Below, piece after piece: positions 3,321 to 56,618 of a stretch of 56,618 nucleotides of DNA (its first letter is position 1; each line of letters opens with the position of its first letter). Below the pieces are notes generated by a model. That model was not told the origin of the DNA, searched no databases, and saw only the letters and a list, made by a program, of their open reading frames with translations. The stretch is from a virus: positions 1 to 56,618 of IMG/VR virus record IMGVR_UViG_3300043353_000072. The stretch is one strand, 5' to 3'. A program made the position numbers and the translations under genes.

Positions 3321-3768
3321 AAATCCCCTCCACCCGTTCCAGTGCGTCGATGAACGCCGTCTGCGCGGCATAGGTCGTGGTGGCGCGCCGCCTGCCGATC
3401 ACGCGCCACGACAGGTCCAGGACGATGACGGCTTCCAGCAGCGCCATCTCGGGCCCGAGCACCTGGGCGACGCGGCGGAGCCGTTCCTGGGCATCCAGCA
3501 GGTCATCGGGTGGCGTCCGCGCGCCCGGCGTGACGCCGGACATGACGCCGCCGAAGGCCGGTGGCGGCAGGCCCGCCACGCGCTCGAAATCGTTTCTGAA
3601 ACGACCGGCCGCCGCGTAAATCTTCTGTGAAATCCTGGCGTTTTCGAACAGGCGGTCCAGTCGCGTGAGGACGGTCCAGCCGGTGCGACGCGCCTGTCGG
3701 TCTACCCGCGGTTCAAGGACCGCATGGTGTCGGATGAACTCAGCCGTGGGACGGGCTGATTGGCGCAT
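3298..3768 (-). CDS. Unknown helical protein
   Basis: A 156-residue basic, mainly helical protein. The segment GWTVLTRLDRLFENARIS and the C-terminal LSWRVIGRRRATTTYAAQTAFIDALERV recall small phage or prophage regulatory proteins, but I cannot name a family. Its first 67 bases overlap the end of the HTH gene upstream, so a shorter start within the reading frame is possible. Confidence 0.6.
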   Translation of the reverse strand: MRQSARPTAEFIRHHAVLEPRVDRQARRTGWTVLTRLDRLFENARISQKIYAAAGRFRNDFERVAGLPPPAFGGVMSGVTPGARTPPDDLLDAQERLRRVAQVLGPEMALLEAVIVLDLSWRVIGRRRATTTYAAQTAFIDALERVEGIYAERAED

Positions 3769-4067
3769 AAGGCTGATCTATCACCGCCGGTATCGTCCCC
3801 GTCAACGCGCGGGCTCCGCCAGCCGGCCGGCAATGGCATGGATTCGAGGCGTCGGAACGCTTCGTCATCGTCCGCCGGCGTGCGCGTAAGAGGTTCCGCC
3901 AGAAAAACGATCCACTCAGCCACGGCGGACGGTACGCGGTCCCGGCCGCTCAGAAAACGATGCGCCCGTCTCGGGTTTATCGACAACCTGCGGGCCAGGG
4001 CCTCCGCTGACCATCCCAGCAGGCGCAGCGCGTTGTGCAGTTGGTCCAGTGTCGGCGTCAGGCTCAT
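3702..4067 (-). CDS. Small helix-turn-helix DNA-binding protein
   Basis: Residues about 7-50 form an HTH of the lambda-repressor/Cro type (LDQLHNALRLLGWSAEALA then RLSINPRRAHRFLSGRDRVP), followed by a helix ending in FLAEPL. The tail is disordered. The first 152 bases overlap the end of the FlbT-like gene, an unusually long overlap for this compact genome, which suggests the FlbT-like gene lost its original stop codon. Probable role: local transcription regulator. Confidence 0.6.
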   Translation of the reverse strand: MSLTPTLDQLHNALRLLGWSAEALARRLSINPRRAHRFLSGRDRVPSAVAEWIVFLAEPLTRTPADDDEAFRRLESMPLPAGWRSPRVDGDDTGGDRSALCANQPVPRLSSSDTMRSLNRG

Positions 4068-4428
4068 GTGACACGTTATGGTCGATCAACGGCCGGAGCG
4101 CCATCAGGGCGTGATGGGACCGTCCGAGTTGCAGCGCGCGGGCCGCCACCTGGGCCTCCACCATGTCGGACACGTCGCCAAGCGCGTCCAGTGCGACCAC
4201 CAGCCGGGCGGCGTAGGATGACACCGGCGCGAGGTGGAGTTGCTGCACGGCGAGGTACGCGGCCAGCACCGGGCCGGCGTCCGCCTCCGCCGCTGCCACG
4301 ATGTCACGCTCGCGGAGGAACCGCGCCGAGTGCGGGAGCATGACCCGCGCCTGGGTTTCGAACAGCAGCATGCGGCCTTCGAAGAACAGCGTCTCGCCGG
4401 CGCGCACGGTGATGACCGGACCGTCCAT
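3916..4428 (-). CDS. FlbT-like flagellin post-transcriptional regulator
   Basis: A 170-residue protein. Residues 6-117 follow the FlbT pattern in order: a beta-rich start ITVRAGETLFFEGRMLL, then FLRERDI (37-43, compare LREKDI in FlbT), AAYLAVQQLHLAP (57-68, compare the Y-F-x-Q-x-x-Y-L-x-P stretch) and ALMALRPLI (107-115, compare ALKALRPLI). Family knowledge: FlbT of Caulobacter and relatives represses flagellin by binding the 5' region of flagellin mRNA. Residues 118-170 have no FlbT counterpart and overlap the HTH gene downstream. A phage copy could down-regulate flagella. Assignment is by motif reading only. Confidence 0.6.
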   Translation of the reverse strand: MDGPVITVRAGETLFFEGRMLLFETQARVMLPHSARFLRERDIVAAAEADAGPVLAAYLAVQQLHLAPVSSYAARLVVALDALGDVSDMVEAQVAARALQLGRSHHALMALRPLIDHNVSHEPDADTGPTAQRAAPAGMVSGGPGPQVVDKPETGASFSERPGPRTVRRG

Positions 4429-5007
4429 TCATAATCCCGTGGGCCGCCTGCCCGGCCATGTCGAGCCCTGGTCGGCGGTGCCGGCGGTGGCCTTCTCCGC
4501 CCATTCCCCGGTGACGTTCATGCTGGGCGGGATCAGCACCAGCCCGGCGCGGCTGTCCCAGCGCACGACCGCCATCACGCCATGCTCGCGCGCCAGCCGG
4601 TCCAGCCACGCCCGAAGTTTGGGCTCGCGGTGGGCGTTCCGGAACGCGGGATCGACCCAGATTTGCACCACGGGCATCGAGCGGTTGGCCTCCGCGATGA
4701 ACACGTAATCCGGCATCATGTCGATGACGTAGTGGCAGCGGTCCGGGCGCGGCAGGCCCGCCGTGTCGGGATCGACCAGCCAGCGGCAGTTCCACTCGTG
4801 ACATTCGCGTGAAACGGCGTTCAGCCGGGCATAGACCATGCACCCGAGGCCGTGGCGTTGGTGCTGGCATCGTCGGCCGGCGGGCTTGTCCAGGCTCCGC
4901 ACGGGCAGCAGCTTGCAGCACAACTGGCAATCGCCGCACTGACGGCCGCCCACCTTCTCGATCAACGTGATTTCCAGGTGGTGGTCGTTGGCCGGTTCGT
5001 CGCTCAC
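4429..5007 (-). CDS. YkgJ-type cysteine-cluster protein
   Basis: A 192-residue protein with the hallmark CGDCQLCCKLLP, then further cysteines in RRCQHQRHGLGC, SRECHEWNC and a final RW segment, as in YkgJ / zinc- or iron-sulfur-cluster binding proteins. The start GTG at 5007 overlaps the previous stop as GTGA, a pattern repeated throughout this phage. The C-terminal half has alternating strands and helices. The substrate of this family is unknown. The gene abuts the FlbT-like start. Confidence 0.75.
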   Translation of the reverse strand: MSDEPANDHHLEITLIEKVGGRQCGDCQLCCKLLPVRSLDKPAGRRCQHQRHGLGCMVYARLNAVSRECHEWNCRWLVDPDTAGLPRPDRCHYVIDMMPDYVFIAEANRSMPVVQIWVDPAFRNAHREPKLRAWLDRLAREHGVMAVVRWDSRAGLVLIPPSMNVTGEWAEKATAGTADQGSTWPGRRPTGL

Positions 5008-5216
5008 GCGTGCCCCGCCAGAGTGTGGTCCTCGATCCACTGGACAAAGCCCGGCGCGCAGAATTCCAGGTTTTCCCGGTGCACGGTCGTGAGATCCTCG
5101 GGCGTGTAGCCCTGGCCCGTCAGCACGAGATACGAGCGCAGCGCCCGCTCCGGCGTCACGGGATTGCCGCGCTCGGAAACGTCCTGACCGCAGCAAAGGC
5201 ATTTGAATGTCGGCAT
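5004..5216 (-). CDS. Small CxCC zinc-knuckle protein (70 aa)
   Basis: Begins MPTFKCLCCGQDVSERGNP, a possible half zinc site, followed by a helical region. Its leader (GGGGAAAACC before ATG) and first codons (MPTF) are duplicated at the next gene upstream (start 5427). It overlaps the YkgJ-like gene as GTGA. Function unknown. Confidence 0.7.
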   Translation of the reverse strand: MPTFKCLCCGQDVSERGNPVTPERALRSYLVLTGQGYTPEDLTTVHRENLEFCAPGFVQWIEDHTLAGHA

Positions 5217-6196: not shown

Positions 6197-7065
6197 CCCG
6201 TTTCCTCCGGTTGCAGCGCATGGAGTCTTGAGCGGGCATAGTCCCGCGCCGTCTGGTCCCGCTCCGGATCGTCCGCGATGGCCCGCCACATGGCGATCAG
6301 CGTTGCGTTCGGCACGGCGGCCGGCGCCGGCGGGGGTGGCGCGACGGGCACCACGGGCGCCACGGGCTCCGGCTTGAGGGCCGCGCGCATGACCGCCAGC
6401 CGCGGCCGAATGGCGGCGTGGAGGATCATGGCCTCCGGGTCGGCCAGCTTGGCCTCGTAGGCCCGGGCCAGTTCCACCGGCGAGTCCATGGCGTCCTCGA
6501 AAATGGGCAGGGCGTCGGGGCGATGGCGCGCCAGCAGGCTGACGTACGTCTGGATCAGCACATGCCGCATGGGGTGGCCCTGGAAGGTCAACGCCGTCAC
6601 CCGCACCGTCTCGTCGGTGATTTCCGCCGTCCGGTCCGCCCGGACCTCGGTGGCGATCTGGCGCGCCAGCCTGGGCGCGTATGTCTCGATGAGGCTGCGG
6701 GCCAGCTTCTCGCCGGTCCTGCCGCGGTGCTTCTCCCAGTAGCCGGCCCAGGCCTGCTCGGTGACATTCCCGGCCACCACGGTGGACGGCGCGGCCGACG
6801 CGGCGGGTGGCGCGTGCTCCCGCAGCCAGGCGGCGAGGGCGTCCCGCAAGCCGTAGTACGTCGGCCAGACGGTGGACTGGGCCGCCAGCGCCTCCGCCAC
6901 CGCCGGCGCCGTGGCGTCGATGAACAGCGTAACGGGGAACTCCGCCAGCAGGCCGGTCGCTTGCGCCATGATGGTGCCGTCCGAGGGAGGCTCGGCCAGT
7001 TCCATCAGCCGGGCCACCCGGCGCAGCCAGATTTCAATTCCCAGGCTGGCGTCGTCATCCGACAC
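6193..7065 (-). CDS. Unknown protein following the replication initiator
   Basis: A 290-residue mostly helical protein with a Pro/Val/Ala linker (about residues 232-252) and a C-terminal helix that repeats the style of the first helices. It overlaps the lambda-O-like gene by 11 bases. By position it could be a helicase-loading or primosome partner (the lambda O-P arrangement), but no Walker motifs or zinc site are visible, so that role is only a guess from context. Confidence 0.65.
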   Translation of the reverse strand: MSDDDASLGIEIWLRRVARLMELAEPPSDGTIMAQATGLLAEFPVTLFIDATAPAVAEALAAQSTVWPTYYGLRDALAAWLREHAPPAASAAPSTVVAGNVTEQAWAGYWEKHRGRTGEKLARSLIETYAPRLARQIATEVRADRTAEITDETVRVTALTFQGHPMRHVLIQTYVSLLARHRPDALPIFEDAMDSPVELARAYEAKLADPEAMILHAAIRPRLAVMRAALKPEPVAPVVPVAPPPPAPAAVPNATLIAMWRAIADDPERDQTARDYARSRLHALQPEETG

Positions 7066-8221
7066 GGCGCGCCTGGGAGAAGGTGTCCGACACCACGGCG
7101 CGAGCGATCAGCACCTCCCGGCCCATGGGCGAGCCCTCGCACAAGGTCAGCGGGTTGAGCGTCTGCTTGCCGTCCAGCCAGTTGCGATCTTTCAGCCACC
7201 AGTGCGCCGCCTTGGGACGTTTCGGGTCATGCTTCCAGCGGAACAGCCCCAACATTAGGTCCGCGTGGGTGGCGATCCCGCTGGCGATGACGCGGGCGTA
7301 CTCCATTTCGGCCTGGTGCCTGTCCTGGTGGACCGGGTAGGCGAGCCAGAAGCCTTCGAAACTTACCGGATATTTATATTCTTTCCGGTGTGGTGTGGCC
7401 GGCGGTGGGTCCGCGCCCGCACCCGCGGCATTCACACTCCCCACTAGAAGGGATTCTTCACTTCCAGAATCAGACTCACACACACTATCAAGAGTCCGCA
7501 CTGGGTTATTCAATGATTTCAATGGGTCGCGGGCAGTAATTATTTGGGAATTGCCCTCTATCTCCGGACAATTCGAATTAATTGCCGAGGAACTCGAATT
7601 CGGCGCCGGGGAATTACCCGAATCTGTCAATGATTCCAGTGGTGCGGCAATTCCCGTGCAATTATCGGCGGCGGGTAATTCCGGGGAATTAGCCCCTAAT
7701 TCAGATGAACTCCCAGTAATTACGGCGCCGTCGCGACCGCCCGCCATGGGCAGCAGCATGGACGTCTGGCCGAGCGGGCCGCGCCGGCTGCCAGGCTTCG
7801 GTCCGGGCTTGCGCCGGCCCTCCATCCTGCGGCCGTCCGGTGACTGCAGGACCACGGGCATGCCCAGGTCGTCGGACTCGGTGTAGGCGATCATGTCCCC
7901 CGGCATGGGGTGTTGACGCATCGCCCGGCGCGGCCGGTTCCATCGTCGGAAATGGCGGACCGCCCCATACTCCCGGCCGTCCCAGGCGGTGTATCGGCGC
8001 ACGAGGTCCAGCGTCTCCATCTCGTCCAGCATGGGCGTGACGTCGATGCCGTCCCCGGGCATGCACCGCAGGCCGATGGATCTGGGCTTCCACTCGAAAG
8101 CCCCGGCGTCGTCGGTGCAATGGACCTGGATCAGCACCAGCAGCAGGCGCGCGGTGACGGACAGGTAGGAAATCATGTCATCGGTGGTGAACCCCGGATG
8201 CACCATGCGCATGCGGCTCAT
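7055..8221 (-). CDS. Lambda-O-like replication initiator
   Basis: A 388-residue protein with three parts: an N-terminal winged-helix-type region (about 1-110, including FTTDDMISYLSVTARLLLVLIQV and TAWDGREYGAVRHFRRWNRP), a Ser/Asn-rich linker (about 150-260) and a C-terminal domain (EGFWLAYPVHQDRHQAEMEY, then HWWLKDRNW) typical of O-like and DnaD-like phage proteins. The linker DNA is AT-rich with 13 AATT tetranucleotides, a layout like lambda, whose origin lies inside O. ATG 8221 forms ATGA with the small ORF before it; an ATG seven codons upstream is less likely. Confidence 0.65.
   Translation of the reverse strand: MSRMRMVHPGFTTDDMISYLSVTARLLLVLIQVHCTDDAGAFEWKPRSIGLRCMPGDGIDVTPMLDEMETLDLVRRYTAWDGREYGAVRHFRRWNRPRRAMRQHPMPGDMIAYTESDDLGMPVVLQSPDGRRMEGRRKPGPKPGSRRGPLGQTSMLLPMAGGRDGAVITGSSSELGANSPELPAADNCTGIAAPLESLTDSGNSPAPNSSSSAINSNCPEIEGNSQIITARDPLKSLNNPVRTLDSVCESDSGSEESLLVGSVNAAGAGADPPPATPHRKEYKYPVSFEGFWLAYPVHQDRHQAEMEYARVIASGIATHADLMLGLFRWKHDPKRPKAAHWWLKDRNWLDGKQTLNPLTLCEGSPMGREVLIARAVVSDTFSQARRVG
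7538..7721. other. Candidate replication origin inside initiator gene
   Basis: In 184 bp there are 13 AATT tetranucleotides, many within GGGGAATTA or GCAATT contexts (for example at 7549, 7612, 7649, 7677, 7687), in a genome that is otherwise strongly GC-rich. The patch encodes the low-complexity linker of the O-like initiator. In lambda-like phages such an intragenic repeat-rich, easily melted patch is the origin bound by the protein it encodes. The repeats are not perfect iterons, so this is an inference. Confidence 0.5.
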
Positions 8222-8379
8222 GACGATGCTCCCCCGTGCCATGAAACTATGATGGATTGATGTCTTGCAATCATCCGGCGGCGTGCCGAATATGGAACGG
8301 GCAGCCCGGGCAGCGGGTTGTCTGAGTCGCCCCGGACGTTCCTGACGTCCCCGGTGCGGGTGAAAACCGGATGTCGCAT
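8218..8379 (-). CDS. Small ORF coupled to initiator (53 aa)
   Basis: ATG 8379 has AAAGGA eight bases upstream, and its TGA overlaps the start of the O-like gene (ATGA at 8218-8221), so it probably sets translation of the initiator. The peptide starts MRHPVFTRTGDVRNVRG and is basic. Its 3' part (8249-8259) contains the complement of CAATCCATCAT, a word repeated at three promoter islands elsewhere. Confidence 0.45.
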   Translation of the reverse strand: MRHPVFTRTGDVRNVRGDSDNPLPGLPVPYSARRRMIARHQSIIVSWHGGASS

Positions 8380-8506: not shown

Positions 8507-9043
8507 TCAGGCGGCCCGCCGAGCGTGCCGTTGCTCCGCCATCAGGCCGAGATAGAGGACGATTGCGTCCGCGATGTTGTCGTCCGCCACGGGCAGCCCG
8601 AGGCTCCGGACGTGCTCCACCACGATGTCTTTGATGCCCACCACGGGACCGCGGCCGAACAGGTCAACGGCGGTCCCGGTTGGCGCGCGGATGGAGCGGG
8701 TGCGGCCGATGATCCGCCGGCGCACCTCGTCCGCCGTGCGCTCGATGACGGGGACGCCGGCCTCGGCGCATTCGCCCTCCACGTACGCGGCGAGCCCGTA
8801 TTGCTGGCGGGCGGCGGCGGCGGACGTCTGGGCGGGGAGCGCCAACGGGGACTCCATGCACACACGGGCCGGCCGCCACTCGTCCAGGTGGTCCCATAAT
8901 GCGGTCCGGAACGCATACAGCCGCAGGCCTCGATTGCCGCGGAGGGTCCAGAGCCCGAACCGCTCCGGGACCGGGCCCGAGCCGTAGGCCCAGCCGACGT
9001 TGCCGGACAGGTCCAGACACAGCGTTCCCCCAGGCCCGGACAT
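8507..9043 (-). CDS. RuvC-like Holliday-junction resolvase
   Basis: A 178-residue RNase-H-fold nuclease. The first strand carries Asp11 (LCLDLSGNVGWAYG), the second acidic residue is Glu64 in VCMESPLAL, and the C-terminal DDNIADAIVLYLG supplies the last acidic pair, matching the RuvC D-E-D-D layout. Length suits RuvC (about 170-180). Phage RuvC-like enzymes resolve recombination or replication branches before packaging. Its ATG overlaps the stop of the RMF-domain gene. Confidence 0.8.
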   Translation of the reverse strand: MSGPGGTLCLDLSGNVGWAYGSGPVPERFGLWTLRGNRGLRLYAFRTALWDHLDEWRPARVCMESPLALPAQTSAAAARQQYGLAAYVEGECAEAGVPVIERTADEVRRRIIGRTRSIRAPTGTAVDLFGRGPVVGIKDIVVEHVRSLGLPVADDNIADAIVLYLGLMAEQRHARRAA

Positions 9044-9714: not shown

Positions 9715-9744
9715 CGTGCGTCGGCTATGAGAAGGGGACCGCGA

Positions 9745-10656
9745 ATGGACGTCACATCGGAACAGGGGGCTGATCCAGCCGTCAAAGTATCGCGCCCGTC
9801 AAGGCCGGCGCACGGGGGGACCTGTCCGGCTGTCAGCCGGAAGCCTGTCACGGGAGGGTCATTGATAAGAGAAACCGCAGTCCGAGACACAGAAAATGAT
9901 ATTGATCTGACGTTCACGACCGACAGCGGGGAGCGGATGGCGGTGCAGGCCAAGCGGTTCCGAACGAAACTAACCGTCCGGCGCACCACGCCGCGCGCCG
10001 ACGCGGATAACCTGGCGCGGACATTCGCCACGCCGGGGGAACGGTTGCGCGCGGTGCGCCTGTTGCGCGGTCTGTTCACCGCGGCCGATGCCGCCCACGC
10101 GCTAAAGGTCCCGGCCGTCACATACCGCGCTCATGAGCGAGGCATCCGAACGCTGGAACCAGAAGTCGCCAGACGGTACGCCAAATTTCTCGATGTGAAC
10201 CCGGATGTAATCCTTTATGGCGATGACGCGGTGGTGTTCCCCGACGCGGTGGGCCGGCGCGTTTTTTACAGCTTCGACGTGGCAGGCGTGGTCAACCGTT
10301 TCGGCCGCGTGGAAGCACTGACCGAAGGCGTGGTCGTGCCGGATGTGAAAGCGGAACGGTTCATGCCGGATGATCGGTTGAGCATGGTGCTGGTGGACGC
10401 GGACGAACTCGCGCCGGCGTATCGACGCGGTGACATGGTGTTCCACGATCCGCTGTTGCGCATTGCCGATCTGCCGGACCTTGACAGATGCGACGCGGTG
10501 GTCCGGGTGAACACGTCGCGCGTGTTCCTGGCGTTCATAACGCGGGCGAAACGCGACTGGATCGTGGAAGTGCCCGGCCAGTCCGAGCCGCGTACCCTGC
10601 CAATATTCGCGGCCGGCCGCGTGCGTTGGGTGCGCCGGGGGATAAGTCCCGGGTGA
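9745..10656 (+). CDS. Phage repressor with HTH and S24-like domain
   Basis: An XRE-type HTH (GERLRAVRLLRGLFTAADAAHAL, then VPAVTYRAHERG) lies near codons 96-140 of this reading. The C-terminal half has the S24/LexA-like strand order (LVDADELAPAYRRGDMVFHDP). The Ser-Met of the autocleavage site is absent, and no Lys stands where the catalytic Lys is expected, so RecA-triggered self-cleavage is doubtful. It faces the leftward early operon, as CI does. The start is uncertain: ATG 9745 has AAGGGG, TTG 9862 has GGGAGG, and ATG 9937 would leave a normal divergent control region. AT-rich bases at 9860-9915 may be the operator. Confidence 0.65.
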   Translation: MDVTSEQGADPAVKVSRPSRPAHGGTCPAVSRKPVTGGSLIRETAVRDTENDIDLTFTTDSGERMAVQAKRFRTKLTVRRTTPRADADNLARTFATPGERLRAVRLLRGLFTAADAAHALKVPAVTYRAHERGIRTLEPEVARRYAKFLDVNPDVILYGDDAVVFPDAVGRRVFYSFDVAGVVNRFGRVEALTEGVVVPDVKAERFMPDDRLSMVLVDADELAPAYRRGDMVFHDPLLRIADLPDLDRCDAVVRVNTSRVFLAFITRAKRDWIVEVPGQSEPRTLPIFAAGRVRWVRRGISPG

Positions 10657-22921: not shown

Positions 22922-22960
22922 CAATCCATCATGACATGATGATACGTTGGCATCATGATG
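22922..22960. promoter_or_regulatory. Repeat cluster at the parA start
   Basis: Contains CAATCCATCAT (22922-22932), CATGACATGATG, and the 19-base word ATACGTTGGCATCATGATG (22942-22960) shared exactly with the P2 inverted repeat. It overlaps the parA start codon, so a protein bound here could autoregulate parA and also affect P4. It may double as a partition site. Confidence 0.65.
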
Positions 22961-23596
22961 CTAACCCTGGTCATGGCAAGTCAGAAAGGCGGCGTGGGCA
23001 AGACCATGCTCAGTTGCGCGCTCGCGGTGGAGGCGAGCCAGCGCGGGTTCTCGCGCGTGGCCCTGCTGGACCTGGACGAACAGAACGCCTCCACCCGCTG
23101 GGCCATGAAGCGCGAGGCCGCCGGCATGCCCGGCGTCACGATGGTGTCCGGCCGGCGGAGCGGCCACCTTCGCGCCACCGTCACGGGACTGGGCCGGGAC
23201 GGGTTCGACCTGCTGGTGATCGACACGCCGCCGGCGGTGTCCCGCGTGGCGGCCGACGCCATGGCGGTCGCGGACCTGGTGGTGGTCCCCGTCCAGCCGT
23301 CGCCCGATGACGTGGAAGCGGTGGGCGCGACCATCGAACTCGCGGAGCGGTCCGGCGCGCGGACGGTGTTCGTGCTGAACCGCGTCAAGCCCAGGGTCGC
23401 GCTGACCCGGGAGTCCATTATCGCCTTGTCCCAGGGCGGCCCGGTGTCCCCGGTTATGATCTGGGACCGGGTGGTGCACGCCGAGGCCCGCATAACCGGC
23501 CGGGTGGCCGGTGAGCTGCGCCCCGGTGGCAAGGCCGCCGAGGAAATGGCCGCTCTGTGGCTGTATTTGTCCGATCAGTTCAAAAGGAAACACTGA
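22955..23596 (+). CDS. parA: ParA-type partition ATPase
   Basis: A 213-residue short ParA without an N-terminal HTH. The deviant Walker A KGGVGKT lies at residues 11-17, with LLDLDEQNAST (A' region) and LLVIDTPP (Walker B). Small ParA proteins of this kind work with a ribbon-helix-helix centromere-binding partner, which follows immediately (TGATG overlap at 23594-23598). It moves and separates copies of a low-copy replicon, so it implies an episomal prophage. Repeats around the start codon may be operator and centromere. Confidence 0.9.
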   Translation: MMLTLVMASQKGGVGKTMLSCALAVEASQRGFSRVALLDLDEQNASTRWAMKREAAGMPGVTMVSGRRSGHLRATVTGLGRDGFDLLVIDTPPAVSRVAADAMAVADLVVVPVQPSPDDVEAVGATIELAERSGARTVFVLNRVKPRVALTRESIIALSQGGPVSPVMIWDRVVHAEARITGRVAGELRPGGKAAEEMAALWLYLSDQFKRKH

Positions 23597-50771: not shown

Positions 50772-52790
50772 TTAGAGCCGTCCCAGGTTCATGAAGCGCC
50801 GGCGCAGCACCGGCCGCCGCACGGGCTGGGCCAGTACGCCCGCCTGCGGGGTGGAAGTCGTGGCCGCCGGGTTGACCGGAGGCTCCGCCGGCATCGGCGG
50901 CGGTGGTGGTTCAAGGCCCAGTTGCGTCTCAAGGTCCCGCCAGTGCACGTCGGTCCAGCGGTCCGCCCCGGCCATCCAGACGGCGGCCCGCGCGTAGACC
51001 CGCATGTCCAGGGCCTCGTTACGTGGCCGTAGCTGACGCCACTCGGTTTTGACCGCCCAGCCGCGCCGGCCGCGCACGATGACGCGCTGTTCGGCCACCA
51101 GTTGCTTGATCCACTCGTCATTGAGCGTTAGCGGCAGGTGGACGTAGCCGGCCGGGTAGCCATAGGTCGCCAGATCCGCATCGGTCGGCCGGTCCAGTTG
51201 CAGCAGCTTGTATGTCTCGCTTTTGAAAAACGAGACGCTCACGGTCCAAAGGCTCACGCCCCGCTTGATCCTCCGGCCGTTCTGCGCGACCTCCACGTAG
51301 ACCGGGCCCGACACGGGCACGGAGCGGTCGTATTGCGGGACGCCCTTGACCGCCAGCACCGTGAGCCGGGACTGCTTGCGCACCCAGGCATAGACCTGCT
51401 GGGTGAAGGCGCCGGTGTCGATCGCGAGCCGTTGCAGCACCAGACGCTTGCCCGAGGCGTGCCTCCATGTGGTCGACAACAGGTTGGTCAGGTGTTCCCA
51501 GGTGCCAGCCTCGCCCGGGTCCCCGTAAACGACCATGTGCTCCACCAGCCAGGACTCCAGCCCCCGGCCCCAGGCCCAGACGTCCAGTTCGATCCGGTCC
51601 GCCTGCACGTCCGCGCCGGCGGTCAGGAACAGCCCCCGCATCGGCACGCCACGGAACGGCCAGTCTTCCCGGCGCTCGTAGAGGCGTTGCCAGTCCGGGA
51701 CGATTTCCGCTTCTTCCTCGTACTCCTCGCCCAGCACCGTGTTGATGAAACTCTTGCGTTTCTCAACGTCGTTGATGGAGCCCTCATAGAACGCGACGAC
51801 CTCCGCCCATGACATCCAGCCGATGGGCGAATACAGCGCCGACAGGTGGTAGCCGCGCACCGAGCGGTCATTCGTTTCGGCCGTGGCGCGCCACTCCCCG
51901 CCGGCCAGCATGGCGGTCTTGTGGTGCTCCCGCATGGCGCCGTCGCAGCCCTCGCACTGATACGTGACGGTGCGCGGCTGCCCGGCCTCCCACTTCATGC
52001 GGTTGAAGTTGAGCACCTGCTTGAGACCACAATGCGGACACGGAACGAAGTAGAACCGCTTGTCCGTGGCATCGAATTCACGGGTTATGCGGGACGTGCC
52101 TTTTAGTTTCGGCGTCGATGCGAGCAGTATCTTGGACCGCACGCCGAAGGTGCGCGTGCGCGCCTCGGCCAGCGCCACCGGGTCGCCCTCGTCCTCGATG
52201 TCGCCCGGGTAGGCGTCAACCTCATCGAGCATCAGGTATCGCACTGGCATGGACCGCAGGCCGACAGCGGAGTTGGCGCCGGTGATGATCAGCACGCCGC
52301 CCACGAATTCCTTCATGAGCATGGTGTTCGTTGTGTCCCGCGAACGGTTGCGCGATACCTTGCCGCGCAACTGCGGGGAGTCGTCGATCAACGGTTGCAG
52401 CCGTTGCGTGGAAAAGCGTTTCGCGGTGTCAACGGTGGGCTGCACCATCATGACCGGCCCGGGGACCTGATCCATTATGTAGCCAATCCAGCAAACGCCC
52501 GCTTCGGAGGCGCCAATCTGCGCGCCTTTTTTGAACACCACGCGCCGCACGGGTGACAGCGCGCTCAAACTGTCCATTATTTCCTTGATGTATGGCGCGC
52601 GTGAGGTTCGATATCGACCGGCCTCCGCCGCGCCACGGGATGACAGGATGCGGTAGCGGTCCGCCCATTCCGAGACGGTCAGTTCCGGGTCCGGCGCCAG
52701 CCCCTCGTCCCAGGCCCGGGCCAGGATGTCGTCCGGGTGGAACGGTGGCGGGGTGAAAGGATACGCGGACGTGACGGATATGTCAGTCAC
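50772..52790 (-). CDS. Terminase large subunit, lambda gpA-like
   Basis: About 672 residues. The ATPase half has VVFKKGAQIGASEAGVCWIG (Walker A type) and RYLMLDEVDAYPG (Walker B). A cysteine pair, CPHCGLKQ and CEGCDG, forms a zinc site. The nuclease half begins GADVQADRIELDVWAWGRGL with the first catalytic Asp. It cuts concatemers and packages DNA. Start GTG 52790 (VTDISVTSAYPF) lies in a palindrome shared with the divergent small-terminase-like gene; ATG 52826 is the alternative. Confidence 0.95.
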   Translation of the reverse strand: MTDISVTSAYPFTPPPFHPDDILARAWDEGLAPDPELTVSEWADRYRILSSRGAAEAGRYRTSRAPYIKEIMDSLSALSPVRRVVFKKGAQIGASEAGVCWIGYIMDQVPGPVMMVQPTVDTAKRFSTQRLQPLIDDSPQLRGKVSRNRSRDTTNTMLMKEFVGGVLIITGANSAVGLRSMPVRYLMLDEVDAYPGDIEDEGDPVALAEARTRTFGVRSKILLASTPKLKGTSRITREFDATDKRFYFVPCPHCGLKQVLNFNRMKWEAGQPRTVTYQCEGCDGAMREHHKTAMLAGGEWRATAETNDRSVRGYHLSALYSPIGWMSWAEVVAFYEGSINDVEKRKSFINTVLGEEYEEEAEIVPDWQRLYERREDWPFRGVPMRGLFLTAGADVQADRIELDVWAWGRGLESWLVEHMVVYGDPGEAGTWEHLTNLLSTTWRHASGKRLVLQRLAIDTGAFTQQVYAWVRKQSRLTVLAVKGVPQYDRSVPVSGPVYVEVAQNGRRIKRGVSLWTVSVSFFKSETYKLLQLDRPTDADLATYGYPAGYVHLPLTLNDEWIKQLVAEQRVIVRGRRGWAVKTEWRQLRPRNEALDMRVYARAAVWMAGADRWTDVHWRDLETQLGLEPPPPPMPAEPPVNPAATTSTPQAGVLAQPVRRPVLRRRFMNLGRL
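52771..52790. promoter_or_regulatory. Palindrome holding two divergent start codons
   Basis: GTGACGGATATGTCAGTCAC reads GTGACTGACATATCCGTCAC on the other strand. Each strand starts a gene with GTG-Thr-Asp: VTDMSVT rightward and VTDISVT leftward. It may be an operator or a cos-proximal binding site for the small terminase. Confidence 0.55.
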
Positions 52791-53259
52791 GGCATACGCC
52801 CGGGCGCGGGACGTGCCGCACTCCACGGTGTTCGAAGCCGTCCGCGCCGGGCTGATCCAGGCCCGGGACGGCCAGGTGAACGTGGAGGAAACCGACGCCG
52901 GCTGGTACGCCGATCATCTTGCCCGGAAGGACAGGGTGGTCAGCCTGGAAGAATTCCGGGTGCGCCAGCGCGGCGCCTCGGTGGTGGACAGCATGGCCCG
53001 GATAGCCGGGCTCAAGCGGCAGGTGGAACAGATACGCAAGACCACGGCCCTCCGCGGCGCCATAGAGCCGGCCGCGACGCGCCGTGCCAGCAGGCTCCGC
53101 GCCGCCCTCGGCGTCCTGCCCACGCTGCACGCCCTGGAAGCCCTGGAAGGCCTGCGGACCCAGCCCGACACCGCCCAGGCGGTGCTGGAACGGTTCGCCG
53201 CCCGGTTGGCGGCGGACCTGGGCGACCTGGACGTGCCCTACCGGGCGCCGGACGGATAA
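52771..53259 (+). CDS. Small-terminase-like HTH protein
   Basis: About 162 residues. MSVTAYARARDVPHSTVFEA, then VRAGLIQARDGQVNVEETDA is a Nu1-like HTH used to bind packaging sites. The helices after it and the C-terminal AARLAADLGDLDVPYRAPD suit oligomerisation. GTG 52771 has AAAGGA upstream; ATG 52780 also fits. It diverges from the large subunit, unlike the usual Nu1-A order. Confidence 0.7.
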   Translation: MTDMSVTAYARARDVPHSTVFEAVRAGLIQARDGQVNVEETDAGWYADHLARKDRVVSLEEFRVRQRGASVVDSMARIAGLKRQVEQIRKTTALRGAIEPAATRRASRLRAALGVLPTLHALEALEGLRTQPDTAQAVLERFAARLAADLGDLDVPYRAPDG

Positions 53260-54330: not shown

Positions 54331-54879
54331 TCACGGCAGGAACGTCTCGGACTGCCGCCCCACTGGCCGGCGCGGGTTTATCTCGGACCTGATGGGCCGG
54401 TGCTGCACCAGGGAGGGGACGTGTAGCCAGTAACGTTCGCGCCTGTCCCCCAAAAAGTCCGCCACCATGAGGTCGAAGCCCGTGGGGTGCTCCACCGCGC
54501 GACGCCAGCCTGGGCGGTAGGCGTGGATGGCGGGCGCGTGGCCGGCCGGCAGGTAGAAGCATTGCGTCATGATGAACGAGCGGCCCGGCATTTCCCTGGA
54601 ACCGAGCCGCGCGTCCGACCGCTTGATGCTGAAAAACTGGATGACCTGCCCTGGGTTTTTGTCGATTTCCGCTTCCACCTTGGCGGTGAAATCCCGCGTC
54701 AGGATGATGTCGTCCTCAAGGTGCACCGTGGGATCGTTCTGGCTGGCCGTCATGGCGTAAAGGAACGTGGTCATGGCGTCGCGCGAGAAGTCCCGCATGA
54801 TTTCCAGGCCGGGAATCCCCGCCGTGAGATCCGGCAGGAAATGCTCACGCTCTCGCACCACGCGCACCAGATACCGCAT
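54331..54879 (-). CDS. Glycosyltransferase-like protein
   Basis: A 182-residue protein. DPTVHLEDDIILTRDFTAKV (EDD at residues 55-57) resembles the DxD metal/nucleotide-sugar site of GT-A enzymes, with the strand before it. GFDLMVADFLGDRRERYW is a later motif like those of GT25-type enzymes, and VQHRPIRSEINPRRPVGRQS closes it. Short for a GT. ATG 54879 overlaps the ParB-like stop. Adjacent to ParB and PP-loop genes, so it may add sugar to DNA, RNA or protein. Confidence 0.65.
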   Translation of the reverse strand: MRYLVRVVREREHFLPDLTAGIPGLEIMRDFSRDAMTTFLYAMTASQNDPTVHLEDDIILTRDFTAKVEAEIDKNPGQVIQFFSIKRSDARLGSREMPGRSFIMTQCFYLPAGHAPAIHAYRPGWRRAVEHPTGFDLMVADFLGDRRERYWLHVPSLVQHRPIRSEINPRRPVGRQSETFLP

Positions 54880-55826
54880 CAGGCCGCCTCCGCCGTCTCC
54901 CGCTGGCAGATGGACAGCAGCCGTTCCGCCGGCCGATCCCCCAGCACCCGCTTGACGATTTCCGCTTCGCTGTCCGCGAACATGAGATTGATCCGGTAGA
55001 ACACGCGGTCCTTCCGTACCAGCTCACGTTCCTCGTCAGTGCGCGCGGCGGCCAGCTTTTGCTCGTGCTCCCGTTGCGCCTCCAAGGCTTGCATCGACAT
55101 GGCGGACGTTATGACGATGCTCCCGTTGTTCACGTCCGAGGCCACCACGGAGGCGCGGCCGTCCTGGTCGCTCCGCGCCTCCGGATTCCAGGCGGCGGTG
55201 TACTCGTCGCCGGCGAGCGCGTCCGGTGCCGGAATGTCCGCCAGCAGCTTCTCAATCTCGGCCTCACTGAGCATGAGACTGTCGGCGGCCCAGTCCAGGG
55301 CTCCGAGTTTCTCAAGGTCCCGCAGCACCTCGGCCGACAACTGGATGTCTTCCGATCCGCGCGCCCGGTTATGCCGCAGCGTGGCGATGCGCATTTGTTC
55401 CGCCGTCATGTCCACCAGCACCACGGGCAACGTCTCCATGCCCAGGGCCGCCGCGGCGCGCCAACGGTGCTCGCCATCGACAATGCGGTGTCCGTCCCGC
55501 TGCACGATGACCGGCTGGGTGAAACCGTCCTCCCGCATGGAGCGCAGCAGCAACTCGAAATCCTTCTCGCTCATGCGGTTGGGATTGTACTCGTTGGGGT
55601 GGATGTCGCTGACCGGCAGGTATTCGATATTGAGCCGTTCCAGCATGATGTTGGTCTTGATGGGCGGCGCGCGTTTGCGTCCCGCCATTCGTTGCGGTCG
55701 CGGTGGATCTGCTGATGGTGGAGCGTGCGCGCCATTGGTTTTCGCGGCGGCCTTGCGCGCCGGTGCCTTGGCTGGTGGTGGTGGTGGGCTCGCCGCTTTT
55801 TTGGCGGCCGTTTGCTTGCGAGGCAT
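54879..55826 (-). CDS. ParB-domain protein, IbrB-like (second ParB-like)
   Basis: A 315-residue protein. The first about 55 residues are an Ala/Lys/Pro basic tail. Residues about 65-200 are a ParB/Srx domain: LNIEYLPVSDIHPNEYNPNR, then HRIVDGEHRWRAAAALGMET (GEHR box) and TLRHNRARGSEDIQLSAEVL. The C-terminus is helical (LEAQREHEQKLAAARTDEER). IbrB-like proteins lie next to PAPS-reductase-like IbrA proteins, as here (gap 9 bases). It may act in gene control or DNA modification. Confidence 0.85.
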   Translation of the reverse strand: MPRKQTAAKKAASPPPPPAKAPARKAAAKTNGAHAPPSADPPRPQRMAGRKRAPPIKTNIMLERLNIEYLPVSDIHPNEYNPNRMSEKDFELLLRSMREDGFTQPVIVQRDGHRIVDGEHRWRAAAALGMETLPVVLVDMTAEQMRIATLRHNRARGSEDIQLSAEVLRDLEKLGALDWAADSLMLSEAEIEKLLADIPAPDALAGDEYTAAWNPEARSDQDGRASVVASDVNNGSIVITSAMSMQALEAQREHEQKLAAARTDEERELVRKDRVFYRINLMFADSEAEIVKRVLGDRPAERLLSICQRETAEAA

Positions 55827-55835
55827 ATCGTTTTC

Positions 55836-56618
55836 CTATGTCCAGGTGGGCGCGAAGCCGCCCCATGTGCCCGATCCGGCGCGGAAGAAATCGGGCTCCA
55901 TCGCCCGGTTGCCACCAATGCCGAAGGTTTTGAGTGCGAAAGGGTCGCCATTGTAGAGGGCCAGCGTGAGGGATCGCCAACAGCCCAGGTTGCCGCTGCA
56001 CATATAGCAAGGCCGGCTCTCCGGCAGGTCCGTTGTCGCGTGGTGCGCATGGGTGTGGACAATGGCCTCGCTGACCTTGGCGGCACGCTCCGCCAGCCAC
56101 GCCGCCGGCGCCTCCGCGATGCACTCGCGCATGAACGTGTCGCGCCACGTTTCGCCCAGCCGACGATGCGGCAGGACGCTTTTCATGCCGAACTGGGAAA
56201 TGGTTTTGGCGCCGGGCAGGCGTGTCTCCACGCGGTCGAACCATCGCGGCCATGCCTTGCGCGCCATGGTCAACAGATACACCGAGGCGGAGTTGAGCGT
56301 GGGCGGTGCTATGCGCATGAACTTCATGGGCACGTCGAAACGAACCATGGCGTTGTAGGCCGTGTTGTAATCCCACTTCTGGTCCCGCACCGCGCGCCAG
56401 ACGTCCGCGTCCTGCCAGTCGTAGATGGGCCGGCAGTTGCGCGTCCCGATGACGTTTCGTTTCGTCATGTGACCGCCGGCGGAGAACACGCTGTAGCGCC
56501 GGTTCTGGCTTTCCGACGCGCGAATCCCCATGACGCTGAAAAGGTCTTTGCCCTCCGGCGTGGGATATACCTGCTTCGAAATGATGCGGGTGATGTCCAT
56601 GGCGTCGATATGCGTGGC
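55836..56618 (-). CDS. PAPS-reductase-like PP-loop protein, C-terminal part
   Basis: Continues the gene that starts at 511 across the circle junction. The part seen here includes KDLFSVMGIRASESQNRRYS, NCRPIYDWQDADVWRAV, typical of PAPS-reductase-like C-terminal regions (a W-D-VW motif), and SRPCYMCSGNLGCWRSLTLA, a CxxC-x5-C group as in DUF3440/IbrA proteins that might hold a metal or Fe-S cluster. Total length about 388 residues. The next gene begins 9 bases on. Confidence 0.85.
   Translation of the reverse strand, partial: ATHIDAMDITRIISKQVYPTPEGKDLFSVMGIRASESQNRRYSVFSAGGHMTKRNVIGTRNCRPIYDWQDADVWRAVRDQKWDYNTAYNAMVRFDVPMKFMRIAPPTLNSASVYLLTMARKAWPRWFDRVETRLPGAKTISQFGMKSVLPHRRLGETWRDTFMRECIAEAPAAWLAERAAKVSEAIVHTHAHHATTDLPESRPCYMCSGNLGCWRSLTLALYNGDPFALKTFGIGGNRAMEPDFFRAGSGTWGGFAPTWT
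56492..56618. repeat. Right copy of 127-bp terminal direct repeat
   Basis: Identical to bases 1-127. Removing one copy gives a 56,491-bp circle in which the PAPS-reductase-like reading frame is continuous. Confidence 0.95.

Follow-up and report, generated by a model that had tools for sequence, protein, structure and literature searches.

A divergent FlbT-like protein encoded in a closed phage genome, with a possible role in flagellin control

The analysed window, a viral contig of 56,618 bases taken over its whole length, encodes a protein whose N-terminal domain belongs to the FlbT family of flagellar regulators. The domain is strongly diverged from its bacterial relatives, and its occurrence in a phage suggests, as far as sequence can tell, tampering with the host flagellum. 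Our preferred explanation, to which we assign a probability of about 0.45, is that a divergent FlbT captured from a flagellated host acts early on flagellin control and changes, most likely lowers, flagellin synthesis.

A real gene in a closed phage genome

The contig carries an exact 127-bp repeat at its ends (1-127 and 56492-56618), typical of assembler overlap in a circular contig, and the genome is closed at 56,491 bp. It encodes terminase, portal, protease, capsid, tape measure, baseplate and tail fibre. The closed genome and the phage genes flanking the FlbT-like gene rule out host contamination, and the phage location given in the original prediction is thereby supported.

The FlbT-like open reading frame (ORF) runs on the minus strand from ATG 4428 to a stop at 3916 (170 aa) and is a real gene; the original prediction had named no strand. 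GC content by codon position across its first 120 codons (0.79/0.43/0.88) is that of coding sequence and follows the pattern of the real genes of this genome; the last 50 codons do not look coding (Table 1). This tail overlaps the neighbouring helix-turn-helix (HTH) gene in a different frame, and the HTH gene's own frame appears to be coding. The non-coding character of the tail and the overlapping coding frame together indicate that the meaningful protein spans approximately residues 1-120, the tail being probably a read-through after stop loss or a sequence error. The start codon immediately follows the TGA of the upstream gene, so the two genes are probably translationally coupled.

Table 1. 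Features of the FlbT-like gene and its genomic context (positions in the window)
Feature	Position	Strand	Evidence
FlbT-like domain (residues about 1-120)	4069..4428	-	Pfam, hhalign, coding GC pattern, AlphaFold pLDDT 84.8
ORF tail (residues 121-170), probably non-functional as coding sequence	3916..4068	-	codon-position GC 0.78/0.69/0.55
HTH protein; its start falls within the 3' end of the FlbT-like gene's ORF	3702..4067	-	Pfam HTH_31 E 9e-5 (below cut-off); PHROG 1590 E 1e-5
Cys-rich phage protein, directly upstream; true start probably within the ORF	4429..5202	-	44 viral-contig relatives; no Pfam match
Replication initiation-like protein, in the leftward block of the FlbT-like gene	7055..8242	-	PHROG 1408 E 1e-14
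RuvC-like Holliday junction resolvase, in the leftward block of the FlbT-like gene	8507..9043	-	PHROG 159 E 1e-11
CI-like repressor, transcribed away from the leftward block; probable true start near 10030	9727..10656	+	PHROG 4 transcriptional repressor, residues 102-242
Terminase large subunit	50772..52826	-	PHROG 15 E 1e-234

Membership of the FlbT family

The original prediction had rested on four sequence blocks (RAGE, FLRERDI, YLAVQQLHLAP and ALMALRPLI), all of which are present in that order, and had proposed a profile search as the check. Pfam FlbT (PF07378) matched the phage protein with 34.9 bits (E = 1.7e-8) over residues 6-117 and nearly the whole profile (3-120 of 125), above the curated cut-off of 27 bits, and no Pfam family besides FlbT was matched. 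A hidden Markov model (HMM) built from 80 bacterial FlbTs scored the phage domain at 30.8 bits, while the top score among 4,826 scored shuffles was 11.9 bits and all other ORFs of the window stayed at or below 3.4 bits. Comparison with ten plasmid-borne bacterial FlbTs by hhalign gave a probability of 96% (E 2e-9) at 19-27% identity, and identity to the aligned bacterial FlbTs did not exceed about 30%. The likeness to FlbT is thus borne out by the Pfam match, by hhalign, by pairwise matches to bacterial FlbTs and by the matching predicted secondary structure, and it is not a product of chance composition.

A sample of 299 genomes was drawn from the family to which a Pseudoroseomonas genome belongs, most likely the Acetobacteraceae; pairwise searches gave matches in 153 of them, mostly at 24-35% identity. 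All ten of the best-matched genomes contained an FlbT match, most of them adjoining flaF and/or flagellin genes; at one bacterial locus (L142), a flagellin-like ORF lies beside the FlbT. Ordinary FlbTs from two genomes of this group score 92-126 bits, which marks the phage protein as a true but remote relative. A chance or convergent resemblance, with no homology to FlbT, is very improbable: low identity and the missed equivalog cut-offs (below) speak for it, as does the construction of the structure model on an alignment containing FlbTs, and against it stand the Pfam E-value, the distance of every shuffle from the observed score and the pairwise matches in half of the genomes searched.

The two NCBIfam FlbT equivalogs were not reached (NF001995, 30.2 against a cut-off of 125 bits, about a quarter; NF009432, 23.9 against 153 bits), and PHROGs gave no match for the FlbT-like protein. 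FlaF had no match anywhere in the phage genome, and no flagellin was found among the phage genes scanned. Because the equivalog cut-offs are missed, the flaF company is missing and the divergence is strong, the phage protein is, on its sequence, a FlbT-domain homologue and not an FlbT orthologue.

AlphaFold2, run on an alignment with 49 bacterial FlbTs, modelled the phage domain with a pLDDT of 84.8 and a pTM of 0.78. The predicted five short strands followed by helices occur in the same order in a bacterial FlbT model (pLDDT 86.8), a comparison of models that were not superposed and that is biased by the bacterial FlbTs in the input alignment of the phage model. Sequence searches of the PDB yielded no solved FlbT structure, and Foldseek against PDB and BFVD returned nothing significant. 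A FliS-like helical part (Z 7.7 for the phage model) was absent from the list of the bacterial model and was set aside as a generic helical bundle.

Divergence from bacterial FlbT

Taking as the conserved set the 16 positions common to two separate FlbT clades, we found that the phage protein retains eight (G18, A35, A49, P53, Y58, A107, L108 and R112) and is altered at the other eight (L4, L6, L8, N17, R56, F59, Y105 and E118). The R25-R26 pair is missing as well; it is conserved in the majority of FlbTs, not in all. The phage domain carries a net charge of -3, compared with a bacterial median of +2 (some bacterial FlbTs also go down to -3), and the N-terminal 45 residues have no net charge, against +4 in the bacterial comparison. 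What is shared with bacterial FlbT (PF07378) comprises the full-length profile match, the predicted five strands and subsequent helices, the E-x5-G and FLRExD blocks, Y58, A107-L108 and R112; what differs is that half of the family-wide residues are changed, that the protein is less basic and phage-borne, and that neither FlaF nor flagellar genes lie beside it. In the tree, the phage branch was saturated and too long for its placement to be read, although features recognised by eye, such as RF-xT and ARFL, are common to the phage protein and the clade of the bacterial loci L137-L146 and the Indioceanicola FlbT.

Because several family-wide residues are lost, the phage protein may not work as an ordinary silencer of flagellin mRNA. 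Its low charge appears unfavourable to RNA binding, with the proviso that charge alone is weak evidence. One alternative, which we regard as rather unlikely, is a dominant-negative mimic. Instead of binding RNA, it would compete with host FlbT for its partner flagellin, or trap host FlbT in dead complexes, and flagellin synthesis would be unlocked or mis-timed. The loss of basic residues, the neutral N-terminal region and the retained core of the predicted fold are in its favour, as is the finding that Caulobacter FlbT works together with the flagellin FljJ (PMC7591256); the weakness of charge as evidence counts against it, as does the literature consulted, which gives no map of the residues with which FlbT binds RNA or its partner.

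An apparently early gene block and a probable alphaproteobacterial host

The FlbT-like gene belongs to a minus-strand block, from 9714 to about 900, that also contains the genes for the replication initiation-like, RuvC-like, Cys-rich and HTH proteins, a methyltransferase and an HTH protein that reads like ParB (1391-2446, with only weak matches to HTH profiles). By its lambda-like organisation, with divergence from the CI-like repressor, this leftward block is apparently an early lytic operon, and the FlbT-like gene would accordingly be expressed early. The original prediction had envisaged silencing of motility in lysogeny or infection; given the place of the gene among replication genes, in a leftward operon that diverges from a repressor-like gene, early lytic action would fit better than silencing in lysogeny.

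The same location bears on a second alternative, a protein repurposed to regulate mRNAs of the phage itself, for example those of its own gene block, in the manner of a phage CsrA-like protein and without a part in flagellar control. We regard it as unlikely: the gene does lie within the replication block beside an HTH gene, and CsrA-like regulators are present in Bcep22-like phages, but no RNA target is known, and the literature consulted knows FlbT only from flagellin control.

Genomes of the Pseudoroseomonas family contain prophage terminases with identities of up to 59-61%, and terminases of metagenome viral contigs are 63-69% identical. These identities fit an Acetobacteraceae-like alphaproteobacterium, which is probably the host. 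The genome also encodes a ParA-like partition protein (22955-23596) and a ParB-like protein (54879-55826), and no integrase was seen among the phage genes scanned; together with the replication initiator and the second ParB-like protein at 1391-2446, these features make a plasmid-like prophage or phage-plasmid possible. At 54879-56600, the ParB-like protein adjoins a protein related to an ORF of locus L165 whose sequence suggests a PAPS-reductase-type enzyme; the two may resemble the IbrB/IbrA pair of phages.

Distribution among phages

Three scans of different construction detected no relatives of the FlbT-like protein among 2.9 million viral contigs. GenBank phages and plasmids yielded none either, and genome contigs gave no close match; scans of these collections require short near-exact peptide matches and have limited sensitivity accordingly. 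The FlbT profile was likewise absent from all 44 viral-contig records carrying relatives of the Cys-rich gene. Across the loci of this upstream gene, the relatives found by terminase and the prophage regions, the sole match to the FlbT HMM was the FlbT in L162, which lies on a separate contig of a bacterial genome that had been included because it was already a match. An orphan FlbT in a Pseudoroseomonas-family genome (L137:1483-1875), with no flagellar gene in the 3 kb read, was considered as a possible prophage copy, but the ORFs beside it read as dnaN-like and LOG-like and not as phage genes. Within reach of these scans, the trait is rare. The literature consulted on FlbT with phages, prophages and auxiliary metabolic genes also mentions no phage FlbT, and the earlier statement that none had been described agrees with PHROGs, GenBank phages, the viral contigs and that literature.

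As FlbT was found in no other phage, nothing indicates that the trait has been under selection for long. An acquired flbT copy decaying without present function is nevertheless improbable. Its confinement to this genome among those searched, the change of half the family-wide residues and the continuation of the frame beyond the domain into the next gene would agree with decay; the strong coding pattern (GC3 0.88), the coupled start codon and a frame intact across the whole domain despite great divergence argue against it.

A possible phage entry into flagellin control

In Caulobacter, FlbT binds the 5' untranslated region (UTR) of flagellin mRNA and promotes its decay; the Brucella FlbT is reported or proposed to be an activator (review PMC4347634), and therefore the direction of any phage effect cannot be assumed. 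Caulobacter FlbT also binds the flagellin FljJ, which is needed for repression (PMC7591256). For phage OLIVR4, whose infection is linked to flagellar function, the listed Agrobacterium mutants include transposon insertions in flbT (PMC10132094). Control of flagellin by phages is well established: temperate phages remodel host flagella via TldR (PMC13418256).

In the early flagellin control that we favour, flbT would have been acquired long ago from a flagellated alphaproteobacterial host and would then have diverged strongly. Made early, in infection or induction, the phage FlbT would enter the host FlbT-flagellin control point at the flagellin 5' UTR and/or at FlbT's partner flagellin, and new flagellin synthesis would be altered, most likely lowered. 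The phage might benefit from saved resources or from a cell closed to flagellum-dependent rivals. The changed residues appear compatible with a second FlbT or with a competitor of host FlbT. Against a flagellin regulator count the equivalog cut-offs that are far from reached, the retention of only 8 of 16 residues, the less basic domain and the absence of FlaF. A broader proposal, that phages of flagellated alphaproteobacteria use captured, stripped-down FlbTs as post-transcriptional antagonists of the host FlbT-flagellin checkpoint, is speculative and, in our estimate, rather unlikely.

Two known phage systems invite comparison. TldR (PMC13418256) is a phage product that acts on the expression of host flagellin, as the FlbT-like protein may do. 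The two are unrelated kinds of protein: TldR derives from TnpB and is an RNA-guided DNA binder that works at the level of transcription. Like the CsrA-like regulators of Bcep22-like phages (Skulduggery, BcepIL02), the FlbT-like protein is small, phage-encoded and similar to a post-transcriptional regulator of the host. We do not claim homology with CsrA: the idea was prompted by one phage CsrA-like protein and was rejected, as canonical CsrA scored against FlbT and the phage protein by hhalign within the shuffled range. The CsrA-like regulator of Skulduggery (L056:795-980) does resemble bacterial FlbT over the first 35 residues (hhalign 93%).

Significance

As a control point of flagella, FlbT is widespread in alphaproteobacteria; we found no solved structure of it. 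Within the searches made, the gene described here would be the first case of a phage-borne FlbT. Beside TldR and the CsrA-like proteins, a phage FlbT would be a third way, independent of these two, for phages to reach flagellin or mRNA control. If still folding, so divergent an FlbT would show which residues the regulator really needs.
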